Shown here: positions 9,250 to 41,940 of the stretch, in pieces
Numbering within the stretch: position 1 is the stretch's first letter
How the letters are laid out: each line of letters starts with the position of its first letter
Assembly (NCBI RefSeq): GCF_019649055.1
Contig: NW_026570309.1
Span: 62,001-126,000 of the forward strand
DNA: 64,000 bases
From: Paramacrobiotus metropolitanus
Taxonomy: Eukaryota; Tardigrada; Eutardigrada; Parachela; Macrobiotidae
Reading direction: 5' to 3'
Notes under the pieces: model-generated
Database searches by the model: none
Seen by the model: the letters and a program-made list of their open reading frames with translations, nothing else
Told to the model about the DNA's origin: nothing
Position numbers and translations under genes: made by a program

Positions 9250-12200
9250 ATGGTGCGCCATCAACGTCAGCAGTGGATTACGGCCCTCCTCGGCGTGACG
9301 CTACTGGTCAGCCCAAAGGTCACCGCCACACCCGGACGAGTCGGTACGTCGCCACTTTATTTTTTCAAATTTAGAATTTTTCTGAAATTACTATTTCCAG
9401 AATTTTGCTAATATTCTCTTTCTGTAGCGATAAAATTTCCGTTTTTAAAAAAAAAATAAGTATTAAAAAAATATCTCTGATATAGGTATTCTTTATATAT
9501 CTATGTACAACACCTTGTGACTTGTGACGTTAAAAGTTTTGTACATAAAAAAACGGGAAAGGTGAATTTTGCGTAGTTAGTTAGTGCGGTGTAATTGTGT
9601 CACCATATGGTGAGCTTGGCATGTCGTGCTGCTATACAAGGACTCTCGCTGACGCGGGCTGATTCCCCTTCGGATTAATTGGCGTGTGGCGGCTTCAGTC
9701 GCACTTTTCTCCCGTCAACGACGTCCGTATTTCTTGCTGTTCTTTCGACGTTGTCCTCTAATTACTTGGTGATGAACGCAAAACCAGTGCCGGCTGATTT
9801 CCTTCGAATTACAGAGCGTTGTAGTGCAGTGGCTACATCTTCTTCGGATTGTTAGGCTTCCTACATAGCGTCATGTATTCTGCACTCTGCAGTGTACACT
9901 GCAAATAATTTGTGGTAAATTTCGAAAATTATTTTTATTATATTATACTGCATATTTTAATGTTTGAACAATTAACATTTGTGGCAGAAATGTAGCGGTT
10001 CCATATGGCTGTCCATATGTCGCCGTGTATGTGCGTATTACTCTAAAGTCTAAATGTCAGCGATTGCGTAAAGTGGCCGCCCGCAGGAAGTGGTTGTTGT
10101 TGGAGGGGGACGAAAATGAAACGCTACTAACGTATAACTGTCGCGGTGTCATAAGAGACCATTAATCGGCCTACATAACCATACCGAAATGAAAATGATC
10201 CGACTGCCCGTTGACCGGTAAAAAATTTCAGCCATCAAACCATGGAAAGCATAACATTCCGCCGCTCTCTGTACGCTATACACACCACATGAGAGCGAAC
10301 TTCACTTTCATTTCCGGCTGTTTATTAACCTCAACAATCAAACTAGACTAACGTTCTTATCATAATCGATGAGAATGTTTTTCCGCGGCAAAACAAAAAC
10401 TCATAAACAATAATAACCAGCTGAACGACGTTTACGTAAGTAGCAATAATGTGAATGCACTTCTTTTAATGCTTCAATGAAAACCTGTGTTCTTGTAATC
10501 AATTTCTCACATTTCCGGTTAAAAATATGGTGCTTATCTACCGCTTTAAAGAATTTAGATTTTTTTGCTAAAGATATAAATGATTTCTGTAATCATAAAA
10601 AATTGTTTTAGCTTATAATTATATGTATTTAAAATATGTTTGCATATGTATATTAGACATAATGTATGTTATGTTTACATAATATATGTTAATTATATGC
10701 GCATATATATGTTTATAACTTAATGTCCAGCGAAAATTTAATTATTAAATTTATTTAAAAGCTGTATATATTTTTATGAGCCTCAGTAATTAAGCAGCGT
10801 TATATGTACAATCCCATTCTTTATATTTGTTTGTACTAGAAAAGGCGTTCACCAGCATCTTTCCGGTTTCTTGGTTTTTTTCCCGCTCCCTCATTAAACG
10901 GGAAAGAAATACGATGCTTAGCGAAGCATGCGCAAGGACAACACCATTATTTGGTGTACGTGTTCGGCGTTAATCTGGGAAATAGGTTGCCTTATGCTGG
11001 CAGCTTCCGGCGCAGGGATCGGCTGGTTTGTTTGGGCCACACGGCGTAGTCGGGGGGCGAAGCGTTGCAGTACACAAGACAGATGACGTCCGTTTGGGCG
11101 CACAATAAATATTTGATGGATGGGCCCGGAAGTGTACGGCGCTGCGCTTCGCGGGATACTGCGAGAGGGGGCGAACATCCAACAACAACAGTGCCAAATA
11201 ACCCACGTAGTCACCCGCAGTTTATTATGGACTGAGCTGTGAGCCTGGGTAAATAAACTCCACTGCATACTTGATGGATTGTTGTTGTTTCCCGAGACTA
11301 GGAAAAAAAAGTGCCGGTTATCTAACACTTTTAGGCCGTATTCAAATCTTATGGAAGTTTTTTTGGTAAATATTTACTGAATTAATTAGTCTAATATACA
11401 AGTTGACAGAATAAACTTTTTACTTTTCATGATCAGTTATTGATAACAAAAAAGGCAAACGCACTGAACATGAAAATTAAAAAATTTAAAATATCTTGGC
11501 AGATTGAAAAATATTAATATCTTTTTCACAATTTTTTTTTACTTGTAAAATAATGACCGCCGAGAATTAATAAATGATTACGCCGAAATGGTTAAAGATC
11601 TGTTATTACATAATACGGTCAAGCAGCTAAGAGGCTTAAAAAATAAATAACCATACTTTACTTCTCAGTCTTTACAGTTTTCTGTCACGAACTTGAACAT
11701 TCTTCACTATTATTCCCCCGCATTATTTATTTACGTCAGTTTCGGCGCTTTTATCGTGAGACTTTTATGTGCCACGCCAACGCTGATCGCGTTCGGCGGC
11801 GATAGTGGAAAATGACGTAAATGGTCCTGTCTTGGGCGCGATCGGCATGTACATAAAACGGAGAAAATATAAATTCAAATAGCACTGGGTGTCCCTGTGA
11901 TCTCTGTGTGTTTGCCCGGGACAAATGCCAGTGGGAAAACATCCAGCGTAATAAACATTTGTGGGCTTCCAATGCGGGGTGCGGACCCGGCAACCGGCTG
12001 CACCGGTACACAAGCGCGGATCTACTTATATGTTGCGCATATATATAAATGTGCGCACTGGGCGCAACAGCCGAAAAGGAAGAAAATATCGATTAATTGT
12101 CCTTGACGTCTTTCAAGTGCATCCAATACGTCAATCCCCGCCATGACTGACAAACAGTAACAATTCCTGCGCGCTGGCACTTTTAACTTTTCCCACTTTA

Positions 12201-15200
12201 TATTTTCCTTCGAAATAAATTTTCCGGATATGGGATATCATATATATACATGCACTGCATACGTATGGAATTATTTTTCCGATTTTCTTTGTGGTTTATC
12301 TTATAAATTAATCATTGTGGAAATTGGTTTTGATTATTTGAAATGAGATTATCCGCTAACGTCATCGTTAATTAATATCCCATTTTATCGGTCTCGTGCA
12401 CGTTATAGCCGTTGAAAATCGTAGAGCAAAGGCGCTTAGCGACAACGGTCCAAAAGGAGCCATTTATAAAATACACAATATGTATGGGGTAATTTTTGCC
12501 AGCATTTAAATGGCAGCATTCAAATTTCACGAAATTCTCGATTTGTTATTTATATTTTTCTGTTAAAACCTTCTACGCAGTCAACTAAAATTTCTTTCTT
12601 CTTTTTGTTTTCATGAAATATTTCCCGTCATCCATAAAACAGGCATAATATTATTTCAGAAAGAATTTTGAGAGTTGCAGAGTAAACAGCTAATGCTGAA
12701 AAAAGCAAAGAAAACATATTTCTGTTTATCAACAGAACTTGGGAATTATAACTAAAACTAATAGTCTAATACCTAGATGGCAATAAAATTGTAAAGCGAG
12801 AAGTTTTTGCACATAATCTGTGTTACAGTTAGGCAGATAATCCTGGGTATCGTGTCGAAAAATGGAAAAAAGCCATTTCTGATATAAACACAATAAAAAC
12901 GCTACCGCTTCGGTATGGTGCGCTCATTTTACGGTCAACCGGAAAGTTCTCGTATTTTTGGACGCAGCAGGGAAGCGGCAAGCGCAAGCGCTCACTCGGG
13001 AGTGCCGACAATTTTTTCTCCCGACTCTTCTCATTAACAACAAACGCTTCCCATTCTCCGTATGAGGCCGCGCCACAAAGCAGTTGACCCATTAACTGTC
13101 GAGCACATCATGGATAATACGAAGCCGGCGTCCCGGCTCCGGATCGATTGCTCGTCGTTTTTGATTTTCCAGCCGGCACAAACGTACATTATCGTTAGAA
13201 TACGTAATGATGCATTTGCCCACTGTTAGCACCTATTAGCCAATGTGCATGTTGTCTGTTGTGGATCGAATCTAGTTTTACCCAATTTTGTCAGATTTCT
13301 GCAACCAGTGTAATGATGATGGTGTTTTTTTTCTATACAGGCTGCTTCTACGATCTACAGCTGTGCGAATCCAACGAATTATGCTACAACGGTGAGCAAA
13401 ACACTAAAACGGAGTATTAACCGCTGTAACACATATGAAAATTTTTGAAAAAGTTATGAAAAAAATAAGTTTGTTAATTAAAAGCCCAATGGAAATGTGT
13501 TCGATATCATTTATCACTTTACTTACACTTTAACTGAAGCTTTTGTCGTAACCTCTGCTTAACGATATTTGTGAAATTGCCGATGATCGTAGAGCAATGG
13601 CTTATTAACTGATAAGTACAGAATATCGAAAAGCACTAAATTTAGGCACTATATATTAACTGTTAACAAATAATTTCCAATTTTTTTCTCAGATTCGTTA
13701 TTCGGCACCTGTGTGTCGCAGTTAAGCGACGCGGTCAGCTACGCCGATCTGCCACCGGAAGCGCTGCAGGAGGCCGCCCGCATCCTCCAGTACTTAATTG
13801 AGACCGGCTACAAATGGCCGGATTCCTATACGCAGTGTGTCGTGGGCAACTACCTGCAGGCGGTGGTTAGTGGCCAGCGCTACGATCCGCAGGTCTGCGA
13901 GTATCTCAAGCAGATCCTCAGTGTCATCGATCAGTCCCGCACTAGCCCGGTGCAGGCTGCGCCCATTAATCCACCGGCAGCCGTGCCGCAAATAGCAACT
14001 GGTACGTGGAATAAATGCAGCACTTTATCATTTATCCCTTCCGCTAGTGCGTTTCATTGAGGAACGCGGATATATATGTACGCGATGCGATAGAGCCGTC
14101 AAGATGCCAGATCGCTATCGATCGGGTTTCTGTGTCGAACGCTACAAGTTGTCGCTGACAAGTTCCTTACAATCAGTCCGTAGACAGCATGAAGAATGAT
14201 AGAAAATTCCAGCCTTTTCTACTTCTAATTATAAAATCCTTCGAGCGTAAAATAATTCGAAAGGTCACGCAGTAATGCGACATAAGGAAATAGCTCGAAT
14301 TACTGCACCTAATTTTAAAGGCATTTTATATTTCGTTAAAAATATCAGTCAAATCCATAAAAGCGAATAAAACTGAAAACAATATAAGTACTGAAATATT
14401 AAGAAAAATGTGAAAGGTCAGCAATCTGTAACGTCAATGAAAATTAAGAAGTTAAAGAGAATAATTTTACTGATATGAAAAAATGTAAAGGATCTTTTAG
14501 CATTAGTAATTATTTATGTTTATGCGATATCTTTGTATAAACTACACCTGCGCAATTGGTACTGATGCATTGCACTACGATATATTCGTAAGAATTAATC
14601 CGAACACGCACTGAAGCGTGTCGTGATAAGTTGGTTATTATACTGAACAGTGGTAACACATAATTATATATCCGTGTTTTTTGGTTCACTGCAACACAAC
14701 CCGCTTATTTATCGGTTAATATTGTGTTTTTCCCCTTTCGACAACGCACTGCGTCAGCAAGACGAATTATATTCCTTGATCTAAAACTGCATTATGCAAA
14801 CAGGACAATTTGCCGGTTATGCATTCAGTGCCGGTGAAGCGTCAATCTTTTGATGGCTAGTCCGTACCGAAAGAAAGACGTTTTCACGGATCAAGTCGGC
14901 AGTTTTTCTCTCTCTGCGCATTGTGTCAATGCTGAGAAATACCCAAGCTGATCCCGTTCATCGGCATTTTGTTTGCTTAGGCCTTTTTTTCTTGGACCTG
15001 AAGACTAGGGTAGCAGTTCTAAAGAGGTGTGACGTATGCATTGGCTATATGTCCGTAGATGCGGCTGAGAAACTGTGCCGAATTCATTTTATCCAGCAAA
15101 GATCAGTTTCATGAATAGCGAACATCTTTTTAATACATATAAAGTGCCGTACACGCATAAACAGTGACATTAATGAAGAATTACATAATTATATTTTTTC

Positions 15201-18200
15201 ATATTAACGAACAAATGATTATAGAATTACCTATATACAATATACATGAACAATTATGTACATATATATTTCCGTAACAGGAAAGATTTAGAAATATTAA
15301 TGACATTATTTCAGTTAAGATAATATTAACCTTTACTGAAAAGGTTCAAAAATTTTGATGCTGTTAAATCTGCAATTGGAACACGGATTGAGCGTAGCGC
15401 AACGGCAACTAAAACCGTTCGGATATAATATCATTACATTAGTCTGCTATTCGCGAAACAAAATTTGGTATTTTAAAGGCGAAGTGAAGGTAATTTTTTA
15501 TTGAAATGGAACGTGTATGTAGTATTTTGATTATTATGTTATCAGTGGTTTTTATTATTATTGAACTATTTTTGTTGAGGTCAATTTGTACAACCCAATC
15601 TTCAAACGAAACGAGGTATGCTTTCGGAAATCCATTGAGTATTTCTGCGGAGCATGTAATCAGGTTGATTTTAAAAATTAGGTACGTAATTTCCCACATT
15701 TATGTTTTGCAGATGTACAAGTACCCGTGGAGCCGTTGACCCACGGCGAATTCATGTCGAAAATGGACGGCAAAGCCGACTTTGACCTACCTTTAATGGA
15801 GGCCGCCCCCTCCTCCCTGGTGACGGACAGCCCCCCGGCGGCGGCCGCCTCCGTCAGCGCCGACGACGCCGCTTCGTACGCCGCCCTTGAGCAATACCTC
15901 CGCCAGTACCAACAAGCCATGGCCGAACAGCAGGCGGCCGCGCCCTTGACCGTAGAGAAGAAATCCGGATCCGCGGAGGACGTCACCACCCCCGCTCCGG
16001 AAGTGACCCCGACCACGCCCGCCACCGCCGACTCGACGCCAACGGTCAACCAGACTGCCATGGATCAGTCTATCCAGACGGACGCCCAGGCATTTGACAA
16101 CCTCTTCGCTATGTTGACGAGCGCCCAGGCCGCCCCGACCACTTCCGACGCCCAGGTGGCGGTGCCGGCATCCTCAGAGCTCGGGGTGGTTCCCCAGACA
16201 TCGGAGCTGACCGCTGTGCCCATGAACCCGCCCATGGAGTTCGTCCCGGAGAGCTCACCCTTCGAGATCATCGCCTCCGACCAGCAACAGATGCCGCTGC
16301 GCATCCCCTTCGATCTGGGAATGCTCCAGCAGAACGGCTTCGGAGGAATCCCAACCGGATTTGACGGTGTTCCGAACAGTTTCGGCGGTATGCCGAATAA
16401 CTTCGGAGGTGTGCCGAATAACTTTGGTGGTATGCCCAACCTCCCACCCAACCTCCAATTCGTGCCGGACTTCAACGCACTCCCTCCTCCCGGCATGTTC
16501 AACAGCCTGGACGAGATGCTACTAGCCCAGCAGATGGTGGCCGCCCAACAGCAGCAGTCGCAGTTCCCCCCGATGATGCCCATGCAGCAGCCGCAGATGG
16601 ATCCGCGCATGCTGATGGACATGTCCATGTTCCAACCCCAGATGGACCCGCGTCTCGCCATGCCCCAGATGTTACCCAACCAGTTCCCGTTCGCGCCGGT
16701 GCCCACCAAACGCGGCGACTACATGTCCATGCCCCCGATGGAGCTCCTGTACCAACGGGCCCCGCCCATGTTCGGGCCGCCGATGATGGACCAGCGGTTC
16801 GGTCCGCCGATGATGGACCAGCGCATGTTCGACCCCATGATGATGCCACCGCAGCTGCCGCAGATGCCCCCCATGGACATGTTCGGCGGCTTCCCGGCCC
16901 CGCCTCCCAACATGGGTGGCTTCCCTCCCAACATGGCCGGCGCCGGCTTCCCGCCAATGGCGTTCGACCAGCAGCAACAGCTGCAGATGGCGCTGCCGGC
17001 CGGGTTCGCCGTGATCGAGCCGGTGATGGTCGATAGCAATAGCAGTGAGGAAGCCATTAAGCAGTTGTTTGCCGAGAGTGTCGGCGATGTCGGTAGTGGC
17101 GCGGAGGGACCAGCGGCGCAGAGTAAGAAAGATCAGGAGTATAAGACCCTCCTCCCCAGCAACGAGAACCAGCAGAGTGAAGTGGTGGAGGATGTCACCG
17201 TAAAGGTCGTCAAAGGGTCACTGCCCGATGATGCCGTCACCGCGTCGACGGATACGCAGGTCAAGCCGGAGGCGGATGATGAAGAGGAATACGTCTTCTT
17301 GACCACCGAACCTCAGTATGTCATTGGGTTAAACGAAAAATCACGTGATAACTGTGTGTTAGCAATATATAAATAAAATTTTGCATTACAGACATTTACG
17401 GTAGTCTCGTGTTGTAGCTGAATTACCTAAATGCATTTTTAGTAGAAACATGTATCGAATTCCGCGTCATCTTTTAATGGTGAGTCGGTGACATTTGCAT
17501 GGTTTATCGAACTTGAATTATTACAGACTGAGCTACGATGAGGCCCGGTATCTTCTCAACTGGTTACGCGCCGTTATGAGTCTTCCAGTCCAGACATTCT
17601 ACGACCTCAGGTAAATCTACCACACCATTTTAATTTATCCTGACCTTAGGCACAGAGACTACGAACACTGTAGTGTAGGCCTTGCAGATCACCATATTAC
17701 AGCGTTAAATTGTAGGTATTTAATACATTGCCTCCTTACTACTGAATTAATATTGGCCCTAAAAGAGTATGAGACATCGATACCGTTAGGATTTCACTAA
17801 CCGTGAGACGTACAAAAATCATAAAAATTGGAAAAATTTAGATTTTCCTGACTCTTTTTCTCCATTTTACTTTTCCGATTTTAATGCGCTCGTACTATAC
17901 AGCGCTACAAATGGCATGATGCCGATTAAGGTCATCGAGTACCATAAAAACCCGTAGGCGCCTACAAGAGCACGGCACATCACGATTACCCGGTGAATAC
18001 GCAATTAGATAGTGCACACCATCTCATAGCAATCACTCCCGTGATCCCGCCACTTAACACTGATTAACCCGTTCTCTCCGCGTGTGGGCGCCAACACACG
18101 CTCAGTGATTGATTGTCTGTTGTTCCAGTGTGAACGATGACCTAGTGACCTTCCGTATTAATCCCGCCCTGAAGAACCTCAACGCTACCTACATTGCGCA

Positions 18201-21200
18201 GACGTTCGGGGATGATGAGCTGCGCAGTGCCATCCGCGGCGCTAATGGGCTGCAGATTAAACGGGCCGGTGTGGGACACTATTCCCTAATCCAGGCGCCC
18301 GGTGAGGATGTGCCCGAACTGCGCTTCGAGCCGACCGCCATCGTGGAGACTCACGAGGTGCCGGCCGCCGAGTCGACCGCCCAACCGACGGCGGATACCA
18401 TTAAGAAATACGATGTCCTGGATCCGACGTTCGCTTTCATCGTCACCGATCCACCGTACGTAGTCGTATTAACTGCACAACAACACGATTTCAAAATAAA
18501 CAACTTATTTGATCAATAACTGCGGAGATAAAAATTTTTCGCACATTAAAGTTGAAATTATAATTACTACTTATTTTATTTTTATTCGACATTTTGCTTT
18601 TAAAAAAAGCAAAATGTTGAATAAAAGTAGAATAGATTTCTTGACCTTTACAAAATAAAATAGATTGAAATATATTTAAAATCAAAATAATTTTTTGATC
18701 TTTCATAATCGATTGAGACTGAAACAACAAATTTGGTAGTTTTCTGTACTCGTGCGGAGTGAAAATTATTTTGGCAAGTCGCTTAAAAATTTACCTTTAA
18801 CACAATACAAAATTTACTAGTGTCACATATAATTTTGCAATGTATTTTGGCGTGGATACGAAAGATTTTGTGTCGAATTAAAGCACAAGATTTTAGTCCC
18901 ACTTTGAAACTTCTACGAAACGTTCTCTGTCAAAATTAACTAAATAAGCCGCTGACATACAATTGCCTTAAAAGTCTTTATAGTCTCTAAACCTAATTAT
19001 AACGTCATCCCGCGTTTTCACCGAACCCATTTCCCCGTGTGTCAGCAGTGCGGCTTCGCGGGACGACTTGTCTCTATAAGTTTGACGCACATAGTGCAAT
19101 TCAATTTGCCGGCCCGGCCCGCGCTTACCCGGTAGTAATCCAGTAGCCGCGAGAGTGACCTTTCAGCGTAATTAATCCGCAGAACGCTGCACTGGCCTTC
19201 TTATATGACACTCTGTGCCTCTCTTCCCCTGTAGGCTGACATACGACTTAGCCCGGCGTCTTCTCAATTGGTTGGCCGTGCAACTGCAAGTGCCGCAGAC
19301 TGTCTTCTCCTATCTGCAGTACGTGCTCTCAGTTTGTAACATTTTTTCATCAGCGCAATTTCCATTAATCTGTTATTGTATAATATTATACAGCATTGAA
19401 GGCAATCAGCTGGTGTTCCGCGTCAGTCCCTACTTCAGCCGGATTAATGCCAGCTCCGTGGTGGAGCACTTATCCGATGCCAGCATCCAGTCGGCGCTGC
19501 GTCAGCAGTTTGCCGTGGAAATCATCCGCGCCGGTATCGGCGACAAGGTAAGGATTTAGCGGTGACCTTTGAGTTATAATTATGTACTGTGGAAAGGGGA
19601 ATTAGCGAGTCGGATATAACTGGTCGAAAACGTGACCTTTAAATATACCGGGCATGACGGGAAGTCGTTAATGAGTTGGATAATTGCGGAAACGTGACGG
19701 TGTGTAGAAGGGTGCTGCAGTGCGGGAAGATTGATTTTGCAATGGTTGAAGGGTTCGTGTAATTGTGCGGTCACGTCAGGTGGTAGCAGTCAGAATTACT
19801 TAGAATAATTTTGCATTTCCGATCGATAAAGCATTTGCTCGCCAGCATTTGAACGTAACTCCTAGATGAAACATATGCTTTACTTCCTTAATATTAATTT
19901 TAAGCAAAACTCTGAGGTTTCTTAATATCATTTCGCCATATACAGTATACGTGCTTACAATTGCGACAGTGGAATATTATTTTTTGCAAGTGTCTTCGAT
20001 CACATGTACGTATAAAAACTGGAAGCGATTACTGCTGTTTCCAGTAATCGCTTCCAATTTCCTTGATCCGAATTTCCTTGCAGTATTGTTTGAAATTTGA
20101 AACCAACGCGCTATGTTGCTTAAGATATTTTCTATTGTTTACGATGTTGTTCCAAACTGGGAGGGGAGGTACACAGTGCTGGCTATACTGTACGTACGTG
20201 TAGGAAAAATAATTAATATGAAGGAGAAAAATAATAGGGAAGAAAAAAATAGTTCTTAACAGTCTGCAGTTTTAAATTGACGCTAGTCACATCATTTCTG
20301 GTACGTATGAATTGCACATGAGCCCTTCTGCTACGTTCGACCACAACACTTTAATGCACAGCGCCAAAATCGATGTACAGAGGTAGTTAGCCATAAAATC
20401 TGCAGACGCGTTTTAGCCGTAAATAATCTCACAGTATTACCACGGTAAAAACGATCTCTTTTATACCGTGGTATCACAGTCAAAATGAGTGCAGGAAAAA
20501 AGTTAATTTGTTTCCCATGCCGTACTGTTATGCGAAATATCTTTTGCTGTGACACCAGCTAGTAACGTAATCTGGTAATTACAGATGCTGTATTATGCTG
20601 TCCAAGTATTTGTTTCACGATTCTCAAAGATTACAACCAGACTCCACTGCTTAAAAATTTGCCTTCATTCTTATTTTTAATTATTAATTATATGAATGAT
20701 CACATAATATTTTTATTATTATGTGTTCATCTATAGGTTCAGGTTATTAAAGCCGACAACAAACAGCGCCAGAATCTCCTCATCGGCCTGATCGCCGTGG
20801 CCTGTGTGGCCGCCCTATTGATCACGTTGGGCATAATTTACTTTGTCCGCCGCAATCTCCTCCTCAAGAAGAAACTGCAGAGTGTGGAGGGCGACGTGGA
20901 GTCCAGTAAAGAGTACGAGGTAAGGATGAACAAGGAGAAGGAAGCCGAAGCCGCCGCGGTGGCCGCCGCCATTGCCATCTCCCAGGCGGAAGCCAATACG
21001 GCACCGGTTATTAAGACCATTGCCTGATTACTTAATGTTGCGCGTTTTTGGTTGCGACTATTTTTTTCTAGATTCTGACACACAAATACTCAGTTTTATT
21101 TTTCTTTTGACAGACGAGATATGTGTGCTTTTATTTTTTGGGTGTGGCTTGGTCTTTCAGTTGAAGTTTATGTTGTGCATGCTGCAGCAGAAAAAATGCA

Positions 21201-24200
21201 ATAAAAATTATATTGTCCACTGGCGACGCTTTGATTTATTTGCCTTCTGTTATGCCTAGATTTTCAGTTTATTCTGCTTTTCCTTTATTCATTTTTATAA
21301 GGGTTATTCAACTCTAATTTTAAAATCAGCATATTTTCGGGCGTCTTCCTGTAGTGATCAGAATGCAGGCAGCTTCGGAGAAATTCGTGACAGCGCATAT
21401 AAGGGATAATGTTGTTGATGTCAGATTGCATAAAAGCCATTTTCCCTGAAAATCAGAGGGACAATCAACTGTGGCGAGAAAACTGATATATGCAGCAGCA
21501 GCTTTTGACATGACACGGGAAGCTCAAGCTGGATCGATAATAATCCGGCAGCCGGCTCTTCAAAAACATCATGCTGCAACAGCAGCAAACCGTATTAAGC
21601 CGTTATATCCGTTTCATATCGTGGTGGATTTACTGCTTCGATCACAGTTAATCGCATATGACTGCATGTTTGGAAGAAACAACAAATATCTGTAATTTCC
21701 GATCTGCGCAGTTGACTTGCTATTACAAAATAGCAAAACCCAAAATTATTACGCTCGATTAATGGAATGCAGCGCAAGCTCAGGTACCAAAGGTCAGCTG
21801 CTTTTATTATGAGTTTGTACGCTGTACGCCTAGTTATTATACGTTTTCATAGCATGTCTGTTTTTGCCATGTGGAAGCTTATTTTTCCGTTATGATAATC
21901 GTTGCTTTTGCAAGCATCCACGTTTTAAGCTATCCATCAGCCTTTCTCCCATTTTAAGCAGCCCACATTTCCTGTGCATCAAGCAATAATAACCCACTTC
22001 CCGTGGGCTCATTTACATAGGAAGCAGTCACGGGAAATGAGTGGCAATGATGGATGTAGGGCATTTCGCTTCTTTCAAGACTCGCTCACTCTCGCTCTGA
22101 CAATATTAGTCGAAAAACGCCTGTGGTGTCAATTGACAGGAATTATGTCGCCAGCGAATGGCCAGCAAGAACCTGGAAGCCGGCACCGTCAAATCGACAC
22201 CCGAACGCGACCGTACCGCCCACAGCAGCACATCGTCCTGGTACGTGTACTCACTGTACGGTACATATTAACTATGCTGTCGCCTTAATCAACCGTCTGC
22301 AACGCTGCAATATCGGCCCATCGGGCATCATTAGCCGGCTTTCCGGTTGGTTGACGAGATGTCGACATGCCATTTACTGTTCAGATCGGATAACCAATGT
22401 TGAACGCGTCAATCCCGGGTGTGCTGCCAGTATTCTGACTGCTCTCTTGTTTTCTAGGAGCGAGGAACCGGCGCCCAACAATATGGACTTAACCACCGGC
22501 CATATGGTGCTCGTAAGTACTTAATTATCGTTGTGTAAACGGTAGTTATGTCCCACGCTGACCTTTATCGTCGTTTTCCTGCTAAATGAAAAATCTTTGA
22601 ATTCTATAATCATAACGGTATAAATAAATATTAACCATAAAGGTCACTAGAGCTATTTTTATAATTTCTCAAGTTAATAGGGTAAAATTTCTGGTAAAAA
22701 TCTCCTATTAAAGGTTACGAAAAGCGTCATGCCTGGCATGTTCCCTGATTAACAAGCTTACAACGCCTACTTTAAAAATTCACCAGACTTTCCAAATTAT
22801 GTTTTTAACTTTGATAGTTTTTGCGAAAATATTTTTAAAAAGTTTTCGGTTGATTAGATGCACGTTTTTCGAAACCGTTACACCAACACTGCAGCCAGCT
22901 TAGCATCACTAATCCATCATTAATCTTTCTGTTTAATGCATGTTACCGGCATTGTGTTCCTGTTTTTCAATACGGATTGCGTGCAGCGCAGCGCGCATCA
23001 CATGAAATTTAATACCGCTCTTTCTTTAATTAGTCGTACATGGAAGACCACCTGAAGCACAAGGAGCGCCTGAATGAAGAGTGGGCCTCACTTTGCACGT
23101 ACGAAGCCGATCCGCGCCAAACGGATGCGGCCAGTCGCAAGGAGAACCTGATAAAAAATCGATATCCGGATGTACTGCCCTGTAGGTGCTCTCTCCCCCT
23201 CGCTTAATTAGCCCCGCCGTACGCCGGAATAACCCGGTTGTTTGTCATAATGCACCGGTGCGGGTTGTTGCATCTGGATCAACAAGGTGATTAGACGTTG
23301 TTGTTCGTTTGCAGATGATCATACCCGGGTGAAGCTGAATCCGGAGGGCAATGTAACCAAATCCGACTATATCAATGCCAGTCTCATTGTAAGTCGTCAC
23401 GGCTGCCGGTGGTGATAATGATAGACCGGATGTGCGTCGGCGTTTAGTAGCGTCAGTGGGTTGTTTGTTTTATAGACCGATGCTGATCCCAAGAACCCAG
23501 CGTATATCGCCACACAGGGACCCTTGCCCGATACGGTCGCTGATTTTTGGCAGGTCAGAAAAAACTAATATTTGCTTTTGCCGGCATTCAATCAAATTTT
23601 CATATGTACAATGATGTTTTTAAGTAATAATCAGTTTTCTTGATCACATACAGAGAAAACGTCCTCAAGATTTCAAGATTTTACGTTTTCTTCTCACGTT
23701 AAATGAGAAAAAGATTTTACTAGAAATCTGGAGCGTCCAGCGATGCTTACCTGCAAAAATGCTGGTTTGCTAAAACAGTGAATGTTTTTAGATGGTTTGG
23801 GAGCAGAACTGTACCGTCATCGTCATGCTGACCCGACTGCGGGAGAACGATCAGGATCTGTGTCATGTCTACTGGCCCAAAGAGGGCAGTGAAGTGTATC
23901 ACAATTACGAAGTCCATCTGGTCAGCGAGCATATCTGGTGCGACGACTATCTGGTGCGCAGTTTCTACCTGAAACATCTGCGCACCCACGAGACCCGCAC
24001 CGTCACCCAGTTCCACTATCTAAACTGGCCCAACCTGGCCGTGCCCACATCGCAAAAGTCCTTCCTGGAATTCCGACGGTACGTAGACGGCAGCTTACTT
24101 TAAGCGTATCCGAGCCATGTAAAAATGGCGTTGTGACCTTTCATATGGTGACACTTTGGCAGTTCTTCTGTGTAGAGCACTGACCCTTCGATGGTGTACA

Positions 24201-25208
24201 TTTCACACTGTGTGAGTGGTGCAACATCCGAAGGGCCAGCGCACACAGATGTACGAGTGACACAAAATAAATACGCTACGCTCCAATTTGATTGCATGCG
24301 CTACCTTTTATCCCACGCCAGGATAGAGATTCTGGTTGTTTTTCAATGTTTTTTTTTAATTTAGTGAGTGAAGGTTTTATAGCTTAACCTACTCGTAGTG
24401 CCGAAAATTGCGCGATCACCTTTGACACTTATTCCAATATGTACGAGTAGCACATACTAATATTACACGTTGACCGAACGTGTCAGTAGGATATCGGCCA
24501 GTTGTACAAGTACAGTCGCTCGTGCTGGATGACGTTACTGTCGGAGGGTCGAATTTAATTCAATACTCCGGCAGTACTGTCAACTGGCACCCAAGCCGGG
24601 TAGTACCTGTTTCCAGCAATTGGGCAATAATGTCTCCTCTTTGTGCACAACTTCAGTGTTATACAATCCAAATATATCCAGACGTTACAACTTGCGTAAC
24701 TTCTAGCTGTCCAGTTCATTTATCTTGTTACTAGATTTAATTTGGATGTTGTTATTTGCAGAAAAGTTAACAAATGCTACAAAGGCGGGCCTTCGCCGAT
24801 CGTTGTTGGTACGTCTCATGTGCAGTTATTTGCATAATCATGTATTTATTTACGTACATATTTAAATATTTTAGCGTAATTATTACATACTTATTTTACA
24901 TATCTACTCTTGAATACTTAGCGATTGTTAACTATTAAAGTTGCAAAATCTTCAGGGGATGTAAATTAAGTGCTGTGTTTTTTGCAGTTTGCAGCGACGG
25001 AGTGGACCGTACCGGCGCCTACTGCTTAATCGATCTGGTCCTCAACCGTATGGCCAAGGGCGTCAAAGAGATGGACATTGCGGCCACCCTGGAACATCTG
25101 CGCGATCAGCGCATGGATATGGTCCGCACCAAAGAGCAATTTGAGTTCGTCCTGACGGCCGTGGCCCAGGAGATCCAGGCCATCCTCAAATCCATGCCGC
25201 AGAAATAA
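9250..25208 (+). CDS. PTPRN: IA-2/phogrin-type receptor protein tyrosine phosphatase-like protein
   Basis: IA-2 proteins are single-pass proteins of neuroendocrine dense-core vesicles with a catalytically dead PTP domain. Seventeen exons fit (1299 aa): 9250-9343, 13341-13391, 13693-14001, 15713-17315, 17527-17610, 18129-18455, 19235-19318, 19394-19547, 20737-20919, 22140-22240, 22458-22512, 23034-23181, 23315-23388, 23476-23553, 23792-24078, 24762-24808, 24988-25208. Seen in order: signal peptide; Cys-rich RESP18-like part ([18 protein letters not shown]); the conserved [18 protein letters not shown]; a long Met/Pro/Gln-rich luminal exon; two tandem copies of the membrane-proximal ectodomain (about 675-785 and 815-902); a TM helix (about 916-938); the juxtamembrane [10 protein letters not shown] and [11 protein letters not shown]; and a PTP domain to the C-terminus ([20 protein letters not shown]). 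The PTP loop reads [10 protein letters not shown] (Cys about 1228) and the WPD loop reads WPN, so it should be inactive. Intron 1 is about 4 kb, with no nested gene recognised. Assignment is secure; the tandem ectodomain is unusual. Confidence 0.96.
18581..18625. repeat. 21-bp-stem hairpin in IA-2 intron 6
   Basis: TTTATTCGACATTTTGC and its near-exact complement form arms 18581-18601 and 18605-18625 with one G/A difference (a G-U pair in RNA) and a 3-base loop. It lies inside an intron of the IA-2 gene. The tiny loop argues against an ordinary pre-miRNA; a fossil foldback or palindromic duplication is more likely. Confidence 0.6.
20020..20056. repeat. Perfect 15-bp-stem hairpin in IA-2 intron 8
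   Basis: TGGAAGCGATTACTG (20020-20034) and its exact reverse complement (20042-20056) are separated by 7 bases. Beyond one mismatch the pairing resumes for 3 A-T pairs. It is GC-richer than the surrounding intron. Function is unknown. Confidence 0.6.
20920..21027 (+). CDS. Possible alternative 3' end of IA-2: read-through of the TM exon
   Basis: If the donor at 20920 (GTAAGG) is not used, the frame of the transmembrane exon stays open for 35 more codons to a TGA at 21025-21027. The extension is Glu/Lys then Ala-rich ([20 protein letters not shown]). Its GC-rich codons resemble IA-2 coding sequence, unlike the AT-rich introns around it. AATAAA follows at 21200-21205. It would give a membrane-anchored luminal receptor without the PTP domain. 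RNA evidence is not available here. Confidence 0.45.
   Translation, partial: VRMNKEKEAEAAAVAAAIAISQAEANTAPVIKTIA
21200..21205 (+). promoter_or_regulatory. Candidate intronic poly(A) signal
   Basis: AATAAA lies about 170 bases after the stop codon of the possible short IA-2 isoform, inside IA-2 intron 9. It is listed because position and reading frame agree. Confidence 0.35.
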
Positions 25209-26508: not shown

Positions 26509-26792
26509 TAGTGATTTCCAAAAGAAATTCGTCATTTTCAGTTTATGTTTATGAAAATTCGATAGGCTTTGCATGGCAGTTCTGCAGTCCGATTCGCCCG
26601 TGCAACACGATATCCCAGTGTGCTAAGTGTAGTCACTGTAGTGCACACTTTGAAGAGCAGGTGCTGGGTGGGTCGCGTTCGTCCAACATCCACTTACAAA
26701 GCCAGCCTAGCCAGGTGATTGTTTTTATGTGCCGACTGGTTTCGGCCGCGTTAGTTGGGATCGGCGCCAAGATCTCAGCCTGCGGTTCGGTT

Positions 26793-27491
26793 AAGGGAAG
26801 TGGCCCGGTACATGGTACATACCAAATTCGTGCACATGCACGAAGTCTTTCCCTTTCGCGTACATACTCCGAAACCCTTTTTTCTCTTGTTTTCATGACA
26901 TTTTGTAGCCAAATGATTTGTATACACGGGCGTGAAAACTGTTTGTGCGCGCAACATCCGGTTCGGGAGTTATGGCTGTTAGAAAATTCCAAAAAGTTTG
27001 AATGCATTCAGGTGTACCAAAAGTCTCATTATGGACTGATCTCTTTCAGATTTTGCATGTAAATGCACATAATGTAAATAATGAAGAACGTTTTTACACC
27101 GATCCACCTAGCATGTTTTTCAAATTTTAAAATGAATTTATAAAATTTTAAAATTCATTTTAAAACTGGAAAAAAGCAGGGAAGTCTGGGTCGGTGTAAA
27201 AACAATCTTCATGGCCAAGTACATTTACGTGAAAAATTTGAAGGAGATCGGTTCATAATGAAACCTTTTTTGGTACATCCAAATGCATTTAAATTTTTTG
27301 GAATTTTCTAACAGCCATAACTCCGGAACCGAATGTTGCGCGCACAAACGGTTTTCCGCCAGTGTACAAATCGTCTGGCTACAGAATATCATAAACCGAA
27401 ACAAAAATTTGTTTGGGAGTGCGCGAAAGTGAAAGTCTTCGTGCATGTATCTGTACACGAATTTGGTATCATGTACCGGGCCACTTCCCTT
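26793..27491. mobile_element. Foldback (long palindromic) element inserted in pseudogene copy A
   Basis: The arms are inverted copies of one another: roughly 26793-27104 pairs with 27189-27491. The outer ends are AAGGGAAGTGGCCCGGTACAT and its complement, and the centre is itself palindromic (27125-27165). The arms differ at many positions, so the element is not recent. The related copy at 31800 shows an apparently empty site (GGTTAAGTATTCGTCGC), placing the insertion between GGTTA and CGTCGC. A fragment resembling the outer end also lies at 26222-26250 inside the other insertion. Confidence 0.65.
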
Positions 27492-29331
27492 CGTCGCTAA
27501 TTCAAAATCCAGTGGCTTTTTATGCAAACGTACTCTGTAAGTAGTAGGTTTTCTCTCATAACTACGGTAAGAAAACTGCATGTCTTTAGGCAATTGTACC
27601 CGTTTGTCGTAGTCAAATTCGAAGTACTGCAGATCGCGCAGGGGAATTCCTTTGCACAATGCCGACGGCGGTCCGCCGGGTACATCCGCTCCACGCTGGG
27701 AACAACCGCCGGATGCGGCTTTATGGGTGCTCCTTCCCAAGTTGAACCTTAACTTGCAGAAAGATAGTTAAACTAAAAATACTTGTAAACGTATCAATTA
27801 CTGACAATTACTGACATCAATTAACATCAGTTAACACCAATTACTGACGAGGTGAAATTCAGATGTTGTGACAACATTAGTTTCGTGTGCTGCGGGGCAG
27901 AAGTACAATATTAGTTAGCCACTTCGCTACGCTTCGTAATAACAGAAGTCTGAAAAAACGTCAAATTCTTTATTACTGTACATTAAATATTTTGTAAATT
28001 TAATTTTACGCTTCAAGTGTTACAATCGTACAATTACTTTGGTAAGTGCGAGCTGATTGTGTGTGCACGTAATCTCTGCATACAAACATTTCTGAAGATC
28101 AGATGGGGGATTCGGCAGATGCTATATTATTTGCAATAAAGTATACATACGTGTTTAATTGTACAGCATCATGCAGTAATAAATTTGAAAAAGCCGACTC
28201 GAATGTTGTGGATAGAGAATTTTTCACACTTCTAGTTATCAAAACAAGTTACGTGCATGTGAATTTTCGCATTTTAAACCGCATTTGCGTTGTAGCAAAG
28301 CTTGCATTGTCCCCCGATTATTACTAGAGTCGCCACCGATCCCAGCTTCGTCCCGGTCAACTAGCTCCACTTTGTTTCGAACATGTGCATTTTTCTCTCA
28401 CTGCCTGCGTGCGTCTGCGTCCTCTCGGGAATGTAAATTTTCGGAGGCATCCGCCGGAGGTTTGGACCAGCCTCCCTGAAGACTGGAGGGAGGGGACGGG
28501 GGCAGTTATCCGTTCCCTTTCCTCGTCTCTATGACCACCGCCATACAGACGGCGACAAGGTGTAATTTCCCCGAAAGGCTTCTTTCGACCCTTTCTGTTG
28601 TTCTGAACTTTCGATCACTGCGCCGAAGCACGCTCCGCCACCTCTTTCAGTAATCGTGCTGATGACCTTACGCGTGCTGCCGGCTCGGCCGTGACCGTAT
28701 GATTGCCAGGAAATTAAAAAGATATTTCTTCACTCTAGAAATACTGCACAATTATCTTAAATGCCCCGAAAGAATTTAATATGCCGGCATTAAAATCACT
28801 TTTATGATTGTCCCGTCCGCCCAAGCACTACCATATCATATGCCCTGCCAAGGTCTACGTACACTGACAGTGGTATGCAGGTGCGATATTTGTCACTGAT
28901 TACACTGAATTCAATTTAAACACAAGCACAGGGCGACGAAACGCTGCCGAAACCGACCAGCACTCACAGCAGCATTAGCTTAAATTTTGTATTATTTGTA
29001 GGACGAGAGATGACAACAATCGCAGTACGAGAGTTGCCTTCTTCTCTTCCGTCCTGGTCAGAAGTTTTGTGGTAATCTAACAATCTGTGGAGAGCGATTT
29101 TTAACAATCTTGCGGGTTCTAACGCTTCCACTCCGACTCATATCACTTCCGGTGTCACAGACTTTGGCTTTCTAGTGTGGTCCCAGATCCACGCCGAAAT
29201 AATAATTACTCCAGTCTGCGGTGCCTCTACCATGTTCTGGGTCTCGGTTCGACTGTTGGAAAACGAATATTTGATGACAGAGAAATTGTTCCGGGTTCCT
29301 ACCTGCGGCAGACTTTAATAATTTTAAACAT

Positions 29332-29410
29332 CATTACACTTACACATTACAAGCGCATCACACATTACACACACATTACATTACACATTACATTACACAT
29401 TACATCACAC
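29332..29410. repeat. CATTACA-type microsatellite flanked by a 21-bp direct repeat
   Basis: Units such as CATTACA and CACATTA repeat irregularly for about 80 bases. The 21-bp sequence GCAGACTTTAATAATTTTAAA occurs on both sides (29308-29328 and 29418-29438). The region from 29180 to about 29570 otherwise shows nothing recognisable. Confidence 0.7.
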
Positions 29411-29569
29411 TATAATAGCAGACTTTAATAATTTTAAATTACATTCTCGTTTATCACCAACGGTTACAAGATGTTTTGTTGCTCCAGTCGGTTTCCGGCG
29501 GCGTAGCAGTGCGTAACAATTTTAGTGGTATTAATACGAGTATCATACGTGCACAATGCTTAGCCTATG

Positions 29570-31008
29570 AATGCACCCAACGTGCACGGCAGTAACGTAG
29601 TGTATGGGCGTAATGCGCGCACATCCTTATTCACTCCTATAATATTATAACACGGCACTACAACTGTATGTGTGGCAGAATTTTTCGGGGAATTTATTTT
29701 TTTCCTGTTTTTAGATTTTGTCCACTTCAGTAGAGGGGGAAACCTTACTTCAAAGCAGACGTACGAGCCTGTCGGGGTACCCACCCGAACGAAGGACGCC
29801 GCCGGGCAGGAAACATCCGAAAGGTCATCAGCACGGTTACCGAGGAAGAGGAAGAAGGGAGTGATGCGGCACAACGGCATCCCAAGCCACAAAAGTGGTC
29901 GAAAGAAGCCTACGGGGAAATGGCACCGCGTCGCCATCTCTACGGCGGTGGCGATGGAGAGGAGCTAGGGAGGAAAAGGGGAACGGACCCCGGTGTCCAG
30001 GGACGGCTGGTCCAAACCCCCGGCGGTTGCCGCCGGGATCTCTGATGTCGGAGCAAAGAGGAGACGGACACAGACGGTCACGGAGGAACGATGGTCGAAG
30101 CAAAGTGAAGGTAATTATTTTCAAATTTATTACTGCATCTTGACGTCTTGACGCTTGCATCTACGTAGCTATATAAAAGATTGTTTTAGTATAAACAGTT
30201 AACATTTTGGCTTTACTTCGTCATTACTGGGGATTTTGATTCCTAGCTTATTTGTGAATTTATCGTTTTAACAATCAATGGCAGTTTCTTCCAGAATTTT
30301 GTATTTTTGTATAAATATCCAATGTACAAAGTATGTACTTGAAAATTTTATATTGTACTCTAATAAAGTACTTCTAGTCTATTTGGCGCATGAGTACTGT
30401 CTTTATAGCCCGACTGCTTGCGCACAGCGCGAGTACAGCTCGTCGTAATACGTTATTCATTTACAGGATCGAAGGGATGACCGCGACGACAACAGCTCCC
30501 GACGATCGGTCATCGCGGATGCGGGGTGGCCACTGGCAGGGAAAGAGTAAATCGCCGGCCGGAGCGCATGCCGGCAGTGCTGCCCGGAGTAAACCAGCAA
30601 AGTAACGAGCGAAACGCGCGAAGAGGAAACAAAAGACCCGTGGTGGGGAACGCCCAAAGTGCGCTCCGGGATTGACCGTGCCATTTTTTCCGCTCTCGGC
30701 TTTTCCACAACAGTTTTTATTGATTCAAGAATTAATTTTAGGTGAATTTTTGGGTTGAATTTCTGTGCATGTTTGACATAAACTCAGTGAAGTGTTTTTA
30801 CACAACATTTTTATATGTACGATGTTGCGTGATGACCTTTCGGAAACACAACGTTAATGCATTATGAAGCGTCGATATTATACATGCAGGTATTAATATC
30901 TGTTTTGTTAATTAGGGTACGCTGCGGGAAGGTATGCCGGCCATCATGCAGGCCTTCTACCTGCAGTTCTACGATCCGGACACGCACCTAAAAAGGAAGT
31001 ACAGACAG
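29570..31008 (+). pseudogene. Decayed copy B of the F5/8C-domain gene, plus-strand orientation
   Basis: Copy B runs opposite to its parent. 29570-29720 resembles intron 5. 29730-30110 resembles exon 6, with the same GKWHRVAI/GKWRRVAI stretch in an alternative frame. 30466-30640 resembles the start of exon 7 (AGSAARSK retained). 30750-30915 resembles intron 8 and 30916-30990 the start of exon 9 (REGMPAIMQAFYLQFYDPDTH). Exon 8 and the rest of exon 7 are missing. The copy ends inside exon 9, where it is joined to copy C in inverted orientation. Frame breaks make it non-functional. Confidence 0.75.
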
Positions 31009-31010
31009 AT

Positions 31011-32570
31011 AGTCTGTACATTCTTTTTACTGAGTTTGGTGTGCTGGAAGAGGATAAAAGGTTTGGGCTGGTTATCCTGGCCGACCCACTGCCACACCTG
31101 CGTGTCCGGATCGTAAAATTGCAGGTAGAACGCCTGCATTACAACCGGAATGCTCCCACCGTATTAATAAGAATAATAATTAAACACGTACCTGCAAGTC
31201 GATGCTTTAGGAGGCTGTTCAACTTAAAGGTCATCACGTATACCGTAAAAATCAAGAACGCAATCGTACTACCGTATTGCATTATATCGCTGAACGAAGT
31301 CAGTGTCAGGCTTGCAAACAAATTCAAAACCAAAGATCATTTTTGATCAATTTTTACGCAAATAAAAATGGTCAACTGAGGAAAAATAAGGAAAGGTTTG
31401 GCACTTACTGCACGGATAATCCCGGAACATATTCTGAAGATATGAGAACGGGTTCGTCTCGCAGTTTAATCGAAGTTATGACTGTCAAACTTATGACTGT
31501 CAAACAGGAAAAAGAAATTCGTCATTGTCAAAATTTTATGTATATACGATGGGCTTTGCACGCCATTCATGCAGCATAACTCGCCTACACACTACAATAT
31601 TACAGTGTTACTAAACAGTGCATATATTGAAGAGCAATTGCTGGATGGGTCGCGTTCGTCGGAAATCCACTTCCAAAGCAAGGTGATTGCTTTTGGTATG
31701 CTGACTGGTTTCGGCCATCAGTAAACGTCGGGTGCCATAACCGTCGGTCATAATACCCGGACTGGTGCCAGGATCTTGGACGTGTCTAATCGGATCTGGT
31801 TAAGTATTCGTCGCTAATTCAAAATCCAGTGATTTTTTTACGAAGACGTACGTAGTCGGTACTAGATCGTTTCCTAATTAGTAATAAAACTGCAAAATAA
31901 TGTTTCGGCAGTTTTGCCCGTGTGTCGTAGTCGATTGCGGATTTGCTATTTTGTCGTTGTCGTAATCGCTGCTGCAGATCGCGCAAGGGAATGTTTGCAC
32001 CATGCCGACGGCGGTCCCCCGAGTACCCGCTCCACGCTGAACGTACGGCGTCACTCCAGCGCCAAATAGACTAGAAGTGCTGTAGATGAAATCCAATTTT
32101 CAATGCACATCTAGGTAATATTAAAAATTCGTTTAAATTCGAACAGTTTTTAACTTTCGAATTCCCAACCGTGCTGATGACCTTTCGTGCGTGTTGCCGG
32201 CTCGGCGGCGTCCTCCGATCGGGTGCGTATCCAGGCAGGTTTGCATGTCGACTGTAAAGTAAGGTTTTGCGCTCTGCTAAAGCGGATAGAATCTACCAGA
32301 AAAGGCATCTGTGACAGTATGATTAAGGTAAAAAACATTTCTTCAAAAAAACACTGTATAATTTATTATCTGAACTTTTCAGAAAGTACTGTAACGTGAA
32401 GACCAATCTTTGTAGCTACTGCCTCCGGGCCCATACACTACGATATCATATGCCCTGCTGAATATTGCATACCAAGCTTCCACGTGCTCTGACACTGGGT
32501 GTACGCAGGTGCCATACTTGTCACTGCTGGTGCTAGCGCTTAAGCCGAATTCGGGGTAAAATACGAGTAA
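31011..32570 (-). pseudogene. Decayed copy C of the F5/8C-domain gene, minus-strand orientation
   Basis: On the minus strand 31011-31140 matches exon 9 (YLQFYDPDTQVWQWVGQDNQ versus YLQFYDPDTHVWQWVSQDNQ), 31150-31600 intron 8 and 31630-31800 exon 8. 31920-32055 is a damaged end of exon 7, 32165-32290 the beginning of exon 6, and 32290-32570 intron 5. It is tail-to-tail with copy B; the join at 31003-31023 is the short palindrome GTACAGAC-AGATA-GTCTGTAC. Deletions and shifted frames make it non-functional. Confidence 0.75.
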
Positions 32571-33443
32571 CAAAAGAGTACAGTAACAGAATGACTCTGT
32601 TGAGGATTATGTAGATGTGCATTGACAGCTAATCGTAAGCACTGTATAAAATTTTTGAAGCCGTTTTCACGCCTGTGTTCTGCATTCGTGCGTGACTTTC
32701 TCTATAACTAGATCTGCATTTTAAATTGAACAAGTTCGAGGTTTTTATAGTGACTGCTGAAAACTAAGTAATAATAATTATTATTATGAAAGCGGAATAA
32801 AAGCACTTTAAGTACAAGAACTATCTGAAATAATAAGCAGCAATAAAGAGAAAATAATTCTGTTAATTATACTCGGGTGCGGATGTGTATCATTGGCATT
32901 TCCGTGTGCGCACAGAAAATGGGATGATGTTTGTTAGTTAGTGCGGCGCCGCGGCTAGACGCGCTAAAAAAGATTACAATAAATAAGTAAATTATTTACT
33001 TTGTTCTTGCTTATATTTCTTCTAAAAATGTACTATCTGGCGTGGACTGCTTTTTAGTTAGTTTTGCTTTCGGTTTTCGGGAAAACAACAAAGAAAACCC
33101 CAAAACATACAATTGCCGTTCGTAACCAGAAAACTTATCCAAAGCATTGTTCATAAAAACATTCATAACACTAACGAGTAACGACATCAACGTACACGAT
33201 ACAAGTGCGCTGAAAAATGCCAAGCCAACATAAGTAAGCAAAAACCATCGAATCCAACAAGCACCGCTGACTAATTCTACCCCAGTAAACTAAAGGTCAC
33301 CAGAGCTTCACAGACGACACTCGCCAAGCCCTACAACAACTAAGTTACCAACAAGAAATCATTTCATAAGAAACTACAACTGACGAAAACGCAGAAATGT
33401 CCAATGCTTCCAAAAGGACAAATTCCAAAAATAATTCCCAGAA
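32571..33443. other. Non-coding 3' flank of the F5/8C-domain gene
   Basis: No gene is seen. About 32880-33180 is the sequence duplicated at 25400-25680, including the shared GTTAGTTAGTGCGGCGC, so the duplication that produced copy A extended past the parent's stop codon. The rest is AT-rich. Confidence 0.5.
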
Positions 33444-39726: not shown

Positions 39727-41225
39727 ATGGGGAGGGCGGGGGAAAGGTCATTGCTGGAGGTTAAAAAGGTCATCGAGGTGTGGCCACTGTGTCCGTGGAA
39801 TTGTCCATAGTTCATTATTTGGGATTCATTAAGTAGTCTATCAGCCAGATAAAGGCTGAGTTCTTTACTGGGTTGCTACACAACAGTTAATGGGAAATAA
39901 CTGTAATCCTGCCTGTATTAATTTGTTTGAAAAGTACTCTACTGTACTGATCTTCTGCATCATTATAGGAACGCCTCGTATTCTGTGCGTATTGTATGTG
40001 TACACACTGTGCAGTGATATTCAGTTTCTTATCAGCCATAAACGCAGACGCCAATATAGTGATTTTTTTCCATAATTTGACAAATTTTGAATGCTTACGT
40101 GTAACAATCCGAAAGGACAGCAACTGCTACTGCCACTCTCCACAGCTTCTTACCAAAAATCGGTGTTATCTACACAAATACCAAAACTCTTCACAAATGC
40201 ATAAATTTCGGGGGAAAACACCAGAAATTGCTTGAAAATTCGTTTAAAAGACATTGGTGCAGAGCAATGACTAGGATCTAAATAAAGGCTGCCGTGGTTC
40301 CTGATTAATCTCGTCACCATACACGTCAAAAACATTTTTATTATTTTACTTTAAGAACAGCAGGTTAAGGAAAATATGCAGAGCACTTCTCGATTCTGAT
40401 AGTCCTATATAGTCCGAGCTAGTGTACATAAGACCTTTCATTATTTTGCACCTGGCCCATGCAGCGGTAGTGGCACAGTTACCGACATGCTCTGAAGAGT
40501 CAAGACCGCGTTACTGACGAAACCAAAAGACAGTGGATATAGCATTTCAGGGAAACTGAGAAAGCTCATGGTCAGCTCGAAAAGAAGAGGCAAGGCCTTC
40601 CGAATTGTGGCAGGTCGTAAACACTTACAGAGTACAGTGCCAGATTGTATTGTTCTCCTGCCGAATGTTGGAACAAAGTCGTTCCCCTTCCAGTGAATCG
40701 CTGTGCCTTAGAGCGAAACCACACTGGCGAGCGGCTCTTTTTGCAAATCCCGTCTGTACCGGTACCCGCTCAGACCACTGGCTAGAGTGTTCTTCAGGTG
40801 ACAGGGCAGTCCAAAGTCTTCTGGCTTTGGGCAGTCTCGTCGGCCTGGCTACAGAACAGGTAATAAAACAATTCAGCTGGCTGCCGGCCACCCACCTCAA
40901 CCAGGTGCGATTTGGCTCTGACTCTGTGATCTACCCAACTAGTACAGATACTGACTGCATTATTTCGAGATACACAAACTCTGTCTACCGGCTATTCTGC
41001 AATCTGCACGATATCCTGCTTACCTGCAAATGCTCGCACTGTGCGAAGGCCTTCGCACTTGAAGTGTGGCCGTAGCAAAAGTCTTCATAACATTTTACCA
41101 ACGTGAGGCAGGTTGTCAGTTGTCACGGCTCTCCTTCATATCACTACGGTTGACCGAAACCGTTAGGGCGTACATGGGCATTCCACTCAAAATACTCAGT
41201 AATATTATTATTTTGTCATACATCT
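39727..41225. other. Non-coding region upstream of the F5/8C-domain gene
   Basis: No supported gene. A 156-codon frame at 40605-41075 and an overlapping antisense frame at 40625-40900 have no recognisable domain and no clean exon structure. The promoter of the minus-strand F5/8C gene should lie just right of 39726, where the sequence is GC-mixed, but no motif can be assigned. Confidence 0.4.
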
Positions 41226-41940
41226 TACCAGGGCTCGGTCACCACTCCCCCCCTCGGAAAAATCTCATTTTTTGTTTGAAGACACAATAGGTATGGGGAA
41301 CACTTACAAAAATACTTTCATCGGCAATGGTCCAGTGGGCGCGGCCAAACACGAATTTAATGGTTGACATTATGGCATGTATCGCCATTGCCGTATTGCT
41401 GTACATAATTATGGTGTTACAGATTACACTGATAAATTTACTTTTCGAGTTCTGTGGCATCTATCACCACTGTAGCTTTACTCCCTGATTTGATTTTGCT
41501 TCCTAATTCACTGTTTTGAAAAATTCAAAATTGTTAGAGAACTCGCCAATGGCTGCTGTACTTAAACCCGAACAGACCGTGTGCTGCAAGTCCATGCCTT
41601 TTAGAGCTTGATACGTGGCGTGATTCTTTAAAATGTTACGTCATTTCAAAACAGTGGATTAGGAAGCAAAATCAAATCAGGGAGTAAAGCTACAGTGGTG
41701 ATGGATGCCACAGAACTCGAAAAATAAATTTATCAGTGTAATCTGTAACACCATAATTATGTACAGCAATACGGCAATGGCGATACATGCCATAATGTCA
41801 ACCATTAAATTCGTGTTTGGCCGCGCCCACTGGACCATTGCCGATGAAAGTATTTTTTTAAGTGTTCCCCATACCTATTGTGTCTTCAAACAAAAGATGA
41901 GATTTTTCCGAGGGGGGAGGTGGTGACCGAGACCGGGTTA
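41226..41940. repeat. Near-perfect inverted repeat (about 0.3 kb arms, 0.12 kb spacer)
   Basis: Arms about 41226-41523 and 41645-41940 are reverse complements with only a few differences. Each encodes almost the same 73-codon frame (start MPQNSK, with YSNTAMAIHAIMS and FGRAHWTIADES). Near identity implies a recent event or ongoing gene conversion. The arms differ at splice-relevant bases: the left has GTAAGT where the right has TTAAGT, and the right has CAAAAG where the left has CAAAAA. Confidence 0.85.

Follow-up and report, generated by a model that had tools for sequence, protein, structure and literature searches.

Does the IA-2/phogrin-type gene of the tardigrade Paramacrobiotus metropolitanus carry one membrane-proximal ectodomain module or two and, if two, how did they arise and do they serve in one protein? 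The window analysed here is the whole 64-kb stretch at positions 62,001 to 126,000 of contig NW_026570309.1 (assembly GCF_019649055.1), numbered from its first nucleotide. It contains one gene of this type, on the + strand, with 17 exons at 9250-25208 encoding 1299 residues. We find that the ectodomain is doubled and that the doubling is old. We consider it likely that an old duplication within the gene produced the two modules, that both are kept and occur together in one IA-2-type vesicle precursor, and that this precursor is perhaps cleaved between them.

Submitted singly to Pfam, both units match Receptor_IA-2 (PF11548) above its cut-off of 29.7 bits, module 1 with 47.0 bits (E 2.6e-12) and module 2 with 49.1 bits (E 6e-13), and the whole protein matches in two stretches with 85.8 bits. 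Both also find the solved modules in PDB: 4hti (phogrin) and 2qt7 (IA-2) with E 0.00096 and 0.0013 for module 1, and with E 2.5e-5 and 0.0038, respectively, for module 2. An earlier note, made from the letters of this DNA alone, had reported two related units here and had proposed the Pfam search of each, a match of only one being the outcome that would speak against it; both match. It placed the units at about residues 675-785 and 815-902, and these positions hold except for the end of unit 1, which the profile sets at about 765 and not 785. The modules are located as follows.

17281-17315, 17527-17610 and 18129-18282, + strand: module 1, residues 675-765.
18421-18455, 19235-19318 and 19394-19547, + strand: module 2, residues 812-902.

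An N-glycosylation sequon is present at the equivalent site of both modules (N732 and N869). Searched with a profile built on both units plus the pair of solved modules, the protein yields exactly two matches, at 675-765 and 812-902; since both units are in the profile, this result shows the copy number and not the homology. No third copy is seen in the protein by hmmsearch without filters. In a six-frame scan of the window, limited to open stretches of at least 15 residues, the next best profile match after the known exons has E 2.1, and the best tblastn match outside the known exons has E 0.92.

A common origin of the two modules is well supported by their alignment and by their introns. The units align without gaps over 86 residues, 30 of which are identical (34.9%). 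The alignment scores 163; 1000 shuffles average 26.1 and reach at most 44. Together with the gene model, which was assembled exon by exon from homology and splice signals, this bears out the two related units of the earlier note. The exons concerned are these.

Exon 4, 15713-17315, + strand: long Pro/Gln/Met-rich luminal region, then the start of module 1 (strand β1), by gene model and profile.
Exon 5, 17527-17610, + strand: 84 nt, phase 2-2; helix-1 part of module 1, the helix placed by alignment to the human module.
Exon 6, 18129-18455, + strand: 327 nt, phase 2-2; module 1 to residue 765, the linker 766-811 including KK806-807, and the start of module 2.
Exon 7, 19235-19318, + strand: 84 nt, phase 2-2; helix-1 part of module 2, the helix placed in the same way.
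Exon 8, 19394-19547, + strand: remainder of module 2, to residue 902, by gene model and profile.

Module codon 12 is interrupted by intron 4 in module 1 (Q686) and by intron 6 in module 2 (P823), and module codon 40 likewise by intron 5 (S714) and intron 7 (H851), all in phase 2 and with an exon of 84 nt between them in both modules, just as the earlier note had described the interruption of the units at two common places. Independent gain of two introns at these places is, in our judgement, not credible. The motifs given for the units need some correction: YxFxxT(E/D)P fits module 1, while module 2 starts with F, so that the common form is [YF]xFxxT[ED]P, and of the strand written as L.FR(I/V).P, which reads LVTFRINP and QLVFRVSP, only FR[IV]xP is shared. 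The duplicated block extends from within exon 4 to within the exon bearing the module end, and the joint is found inside the present exon 6, so the duplication was no simple copy of whole exons. Hence, of the exon-pair tandem duplication proposed earlier, the tandem duplication stands, in agreement with Pfam, introns and alignment, and the clean exon pair does not. We thus regard a tandem duplication of the IA-2 ectodomain module, with breaks that would fall within exons, as well supported.

How old is it? With Met and Trp left aside, the units have 29 identical residues; 14 of these are encoded by one and the same codon in both, with 12.5 expected from the codon use of the gene (standard deviation 2.6), and over the aligned codons the copies share 127 of 258 nucleotides (49%). 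The six pairwise comparisons of introns 4-7 give a best match of E 0.23. Between the two genomic copies, the sole match better than E 1.8 is 41 nt long and lies where exons 5 and 7 begin (75.6%, E 0.001). The duplication is old, and the codon and intron comparisons rule out a recent duplication or gene conversion. Despite the diverged introns and the codon sharing at chance level, both modules have stayed open and family-like, including the sequon, which indicates that both are under selection as protein and argues that both are used. Nothing was found in favour of the view that either module is a dead remnant, or that the tandem is an error of assembly, and we take it to be extremely improbable: 127 of 258 shared nucleotides and unrelated introns are not expected from a recent mis-assembly, and both modules match the family above the cut-off.

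The timing relative to the split from vertebrates rests on little material, namely four sequences and 85 columns. A likelihood test on them favours the pairing of unit 1 with unit 2 and of IA-2 with phogrin (approximately unbiased test 0.98; 0.018 for each alternative); because IA-2 and phogrin are sisters, this cannot separate duplication before the split from duplication after it. We have therefore rejected the quartet result as proof of a later duplication and use distances in its place. The normalised distance between the units is 1.03, against 1.28-1.65 for unit-human pairs; of 2000 bootstraps, 1692 place the units closer to each other than every such pair, and in 1885 the distance between the units is below the mean distance of unit 2 to the human modules. 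The identities (30/85 between the units, 20 to 26/85 for unit-human pairs) are less clear than the distances.

Alternatively, the module may have been duplicated already in the ancestor of bilaterian IA-2 proteins, with loss of one copy in vertebrates. The same tree would be expected in this case, since the test rejects only trees in which the units pair separately, one of them with IA-2 and one with phogrin, and the divergence of the units is large. However, the units are closer to each other than any unit-human pair in the bootstraps given above, their branch lengths are alike (0.73 and 0.71), and the midpoint, worked by hand, falls on the branch to the human pair. Both units further differ from the human pair by the same gap of one residue, insertion of two residues and shift of the sequon, characters that may be either derived or ancestral. 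We regard an ancestral duplication as rather unlikely; duplication after the split from vertebrates is moderately favoured by the distances, without proof.

The gene model and the two modules, as well as the shared intron places and the age, follow directly from the data, and the scheme below builds on them. The model has GT-AG borders in 16 of 16 introns and a frame open to the stop at 25208, with no internal stop. Its remaining exons are the following.

Exon 1, 9250-9343, + strand: start codon and probable signal peptide (judged by eye), with a GT donor and in frame with exon 2.
Exon 2, 13341-13391, + strand: start of the Cys-rich N-terminal part, residues ~32-49, by gene model.
Exon 3, 13693-14001, + strand: remainder of the N-terminal part, by gene model.
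Exon 9, 20737-20919, + strand: membrane anchor (~residues 916-939, judged by eye) and juxtamembrane part.
Exons 10-13, 22140-22240, 22458-22512, 23034-23181 and 23315-23388, + strand: part of the block of exons 10-17 for the cytoplasmic region and phosphatase-like domain.
Exons 14-17, 23476-23553, 23792-24078, 24762-24808 and 24988-25208, + strand: part of the same block.

A RESP18-homology domain at the N-terminus is a feature of the IA-2/phogrin family, and the Cys-rich part may resemble that of the human protein; it has no Pfam match at E up to 10 and no relevant match in PDB. Short repeats of the NNFGG[VM]P type are present at 16330-16450 of exon 4, inside the Met/Pro/Gln-rich luminal region.

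The C-terminal domain matches Y_phosphatase in a single stretch (270.6 bits). Among the best 60 of 222 PDB matches of this domain, 2qep (phogrin, PTPRN2) with 461.8 bits and 2i1y with 454.7 bits lead, followed by 384.9 bits; 2i1y, named in the database only as a receptor-type phosphatase, is presumably IA-2. The signature loop (exon 17, 24988-25208) differs from HCSDGAGRTG of 2i1y and HCSDGAGRSG of 2qep by Val for the His before Cys and Asp for a Gly, and shares their Asp. The position that we take to be the WPD loop reads NWPNLA (exon 15, 23792-24078). The catalytic loop is thus altered in the way of pseudophosphatases and the domain is probably inactive. With this loop, the PF11548 module and a single phosphatase-type domain closest to the IA-2 group, the protein has these features of the IA-2/phogrin group (PTPRN, R8), and by family it would be located in dense-core secretory vesicles. 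A scan for relatives with the conserved phosphatase exon gave 9 pattern matches in genome contigs and 11 in viral contigs, none of which was confirmed in either set.

We suggest that both copies most likely reside in one precursor. It would consist of the signal peptide, the Cys-rich N-terminal part, the low-complexity luminal region, module 1, the 46-residue linker, module 2, the membrane anchor and the pseudophosphatase. Module 2 would occupy the position of the human mature ectodomain, and module 1 may serve as an extra association module. The dibasic KK806-807 precedes by eight residues F815, where the match of module 2 to the human fold begins. A cut there would part module 1 from the membrane-bound part, and with such cleavage the two modules would be together only in the uncut form.

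Several points weigh against this scheme. Further dibasics are found in the ectodomain at 234, 484, 623, 758 (in module 1) and 830 (in module 2), so KK806-807 is not special by frequency, and convertases cut less readily at KK than at KR or RR. A fold prediction of module 2 without strand β1 and with intron 7 read through has a mean pLDDT (predicted local distance difference test) of 51.2, which proves nothing. Exons 5, 6 and 7 are each of phase 2-2 and can be skipped singly or together in frame; skipping of 5 and 6 or of 6 and 7 leaves one complete module in an open frame without stops, thus single-module isoforms are possible.

The copies might accordingly be supposed to serve alternative splicing, with one module per transcript (exons 4-7-8 or 4-5-8) and the two-module form rare or absent. 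The lengths of exons 5, 6 and 7, all multiples of three, and the equal length of exons 5 and 7 would suit such a use, together with the in-frame skips just given. However, exon 6 both completes module 1 and opens module 2, which is no layout of mutually exclusive exons, and as a plain reading these have been set back for this reason. The linker in exon 6 is open, the splice sites are GT-AG throughout (their strength was not scored), and the shared phases are expected from the duplication alone. Strict mutual exclusion of the modules is unlikely, and we judge it quite improbable that one-module transcripts are the purpose of the copies.

Intron 7 (19319-19393) is 75 nt long, in frame and free of stops, and exons 7-8 can be read as one open frame. 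Its retention as coding sequence is rejected: the log-odds value per codon is -1.15, and exons 5 and 7 have 0.44. The frame past the donor of exon 9 is of another kind.

20920-21027, + strand: read-through of exon 9, in frame for 35 more codons to a TGA at 21025-21027, with AATAAA at 21200.

These codons are coding-like, with a log-odds of 0.85 per codon that exceeds all 8332 overlapping intron windows (maximum 0.58); against their own base composition the value is 0.28, reached in 0 of 1000 shuffles. The read-through may be an alternative 3' end; the resulting isoform would be short, retaining the two modules and the membrane anchor and lacking the phosphatase domain. Going further, one can picture a vesicle receptor with two modules that is specific to this lineage: convertase cleavage would release module 1 in soluble form and leave module 2 bound to the membrane, the two being able to pair mutually or with vesicle partners, and the possible short form could act as a decoy that keeps both modules without the pseudophosphatase. 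This is a speculative and, in our view, clearly unlikely extension.

Other features of the window are listed here.

26640-36114, downstream of the IA-2-type gene: several scattered repeats, some direct and some inverted, 66-276 nt long and 75-91% alike; probably remains of old mobile elements.
37218-37586, - strand: weak F5_F8_type_C match, 24.6 bits (cut-off 28.2).
41224-41941: inverted repeat with arms of 298 nt, 97% complementary and 122 nt apart, which looks like a foldback element.
50705-51058, - strand: frame with 3HCDH, 77.8 bits; a hydroxyacyl-CoA dehydrogenase exon.
54352-54681, - strand: weak match to the hormone receptor domain HRM, 17.3 bits (cut-off 26.2).
59561-63323: ankyrin-repeat frame (Ank_2, 77.3 bits), then a frame with weak Ion_trans (17.9 bits, cut-off 25); possibly a TRP-type channel gene.

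In a Pfam scan of 10 frames of the window, 5 had no match.

The gene thus belongs to a known protein family and has a doubled module; the duplication reading is right, and the effects on dimerisation or cleavage suggested in the earlier note are conjectural. No description of a doubled IA-2 module appears in the titles and abstract starts among the open-literature matches listed, which is weak evidence of novelty, most subscription papers being outside them. Phogrin/IA-2beta (PTPRN2; 4hti for the ectodomain and 2qep for the phosphatase, both presumably human) leads the PDB matches for either module and, among the best 60 of 222, also those for the phosphatase-like domain; unlike the tardigrade protein, it has one module in the solved 99-residue chain. 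Human IA-2/ICA512 (PTPRN, 2qt7) has the same type of module and the same order of module, membrane anchor and single pseudophosphatase. A sequon is nearby as well, the tardigrade sequons being two columns from that of IA-2 and phogrin.

In the excerpted text of PMC3174154, the human IA-2 module has a ferredoxin-like, SEA-related fold (residues 468-558), and furin-like processing, described upstream of the module also in the part available of PMC10815196, leaves residues 449-575 outside the membrane. By the descriptions in these excerpts, the mature human ectodomain has one module, whereas the tardigrade one has two. Crystals of the human module contain β2-β2 and β4-β4 dimers, the former found also in solution (PMC3174154, excerpt). 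The triad of the β2-β2 dimer, N506/S508/R519, corresponds to D712/S714/N725 in module 1 and Y849/H851/S862 in module 2, so that one residue is kept in the former and none in the latter; phogrin also lacks it (D/E/S). Because the triad is poorly kept, in phogrin too, and the G-x-G at the end of β4 is kept in both modules, β4 is more likely to be the shared contact. The human dimer modes came from crystals of a single module (PMC3174154, same excerpt), and the natural tandem offers an evolutionary test of them: a surface conserved in both copies is likely needed, and one conserved in a single copy is dispensable or specific to that copy. Among invertebrates, the family includes C. elegans IDA-1 and Drosophila Ia-2, which the portions available of PMC2657203 and PMC7880684 link to dense-core vesicles without giving a number of modules. 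The ectodomain of this vesicle receptor can evidently grow by intragenic duplication. One membrane-proximal module is typical of the described human members and does not define the family; the two modules of the tardigrade protein are a difference in number, not in kind.

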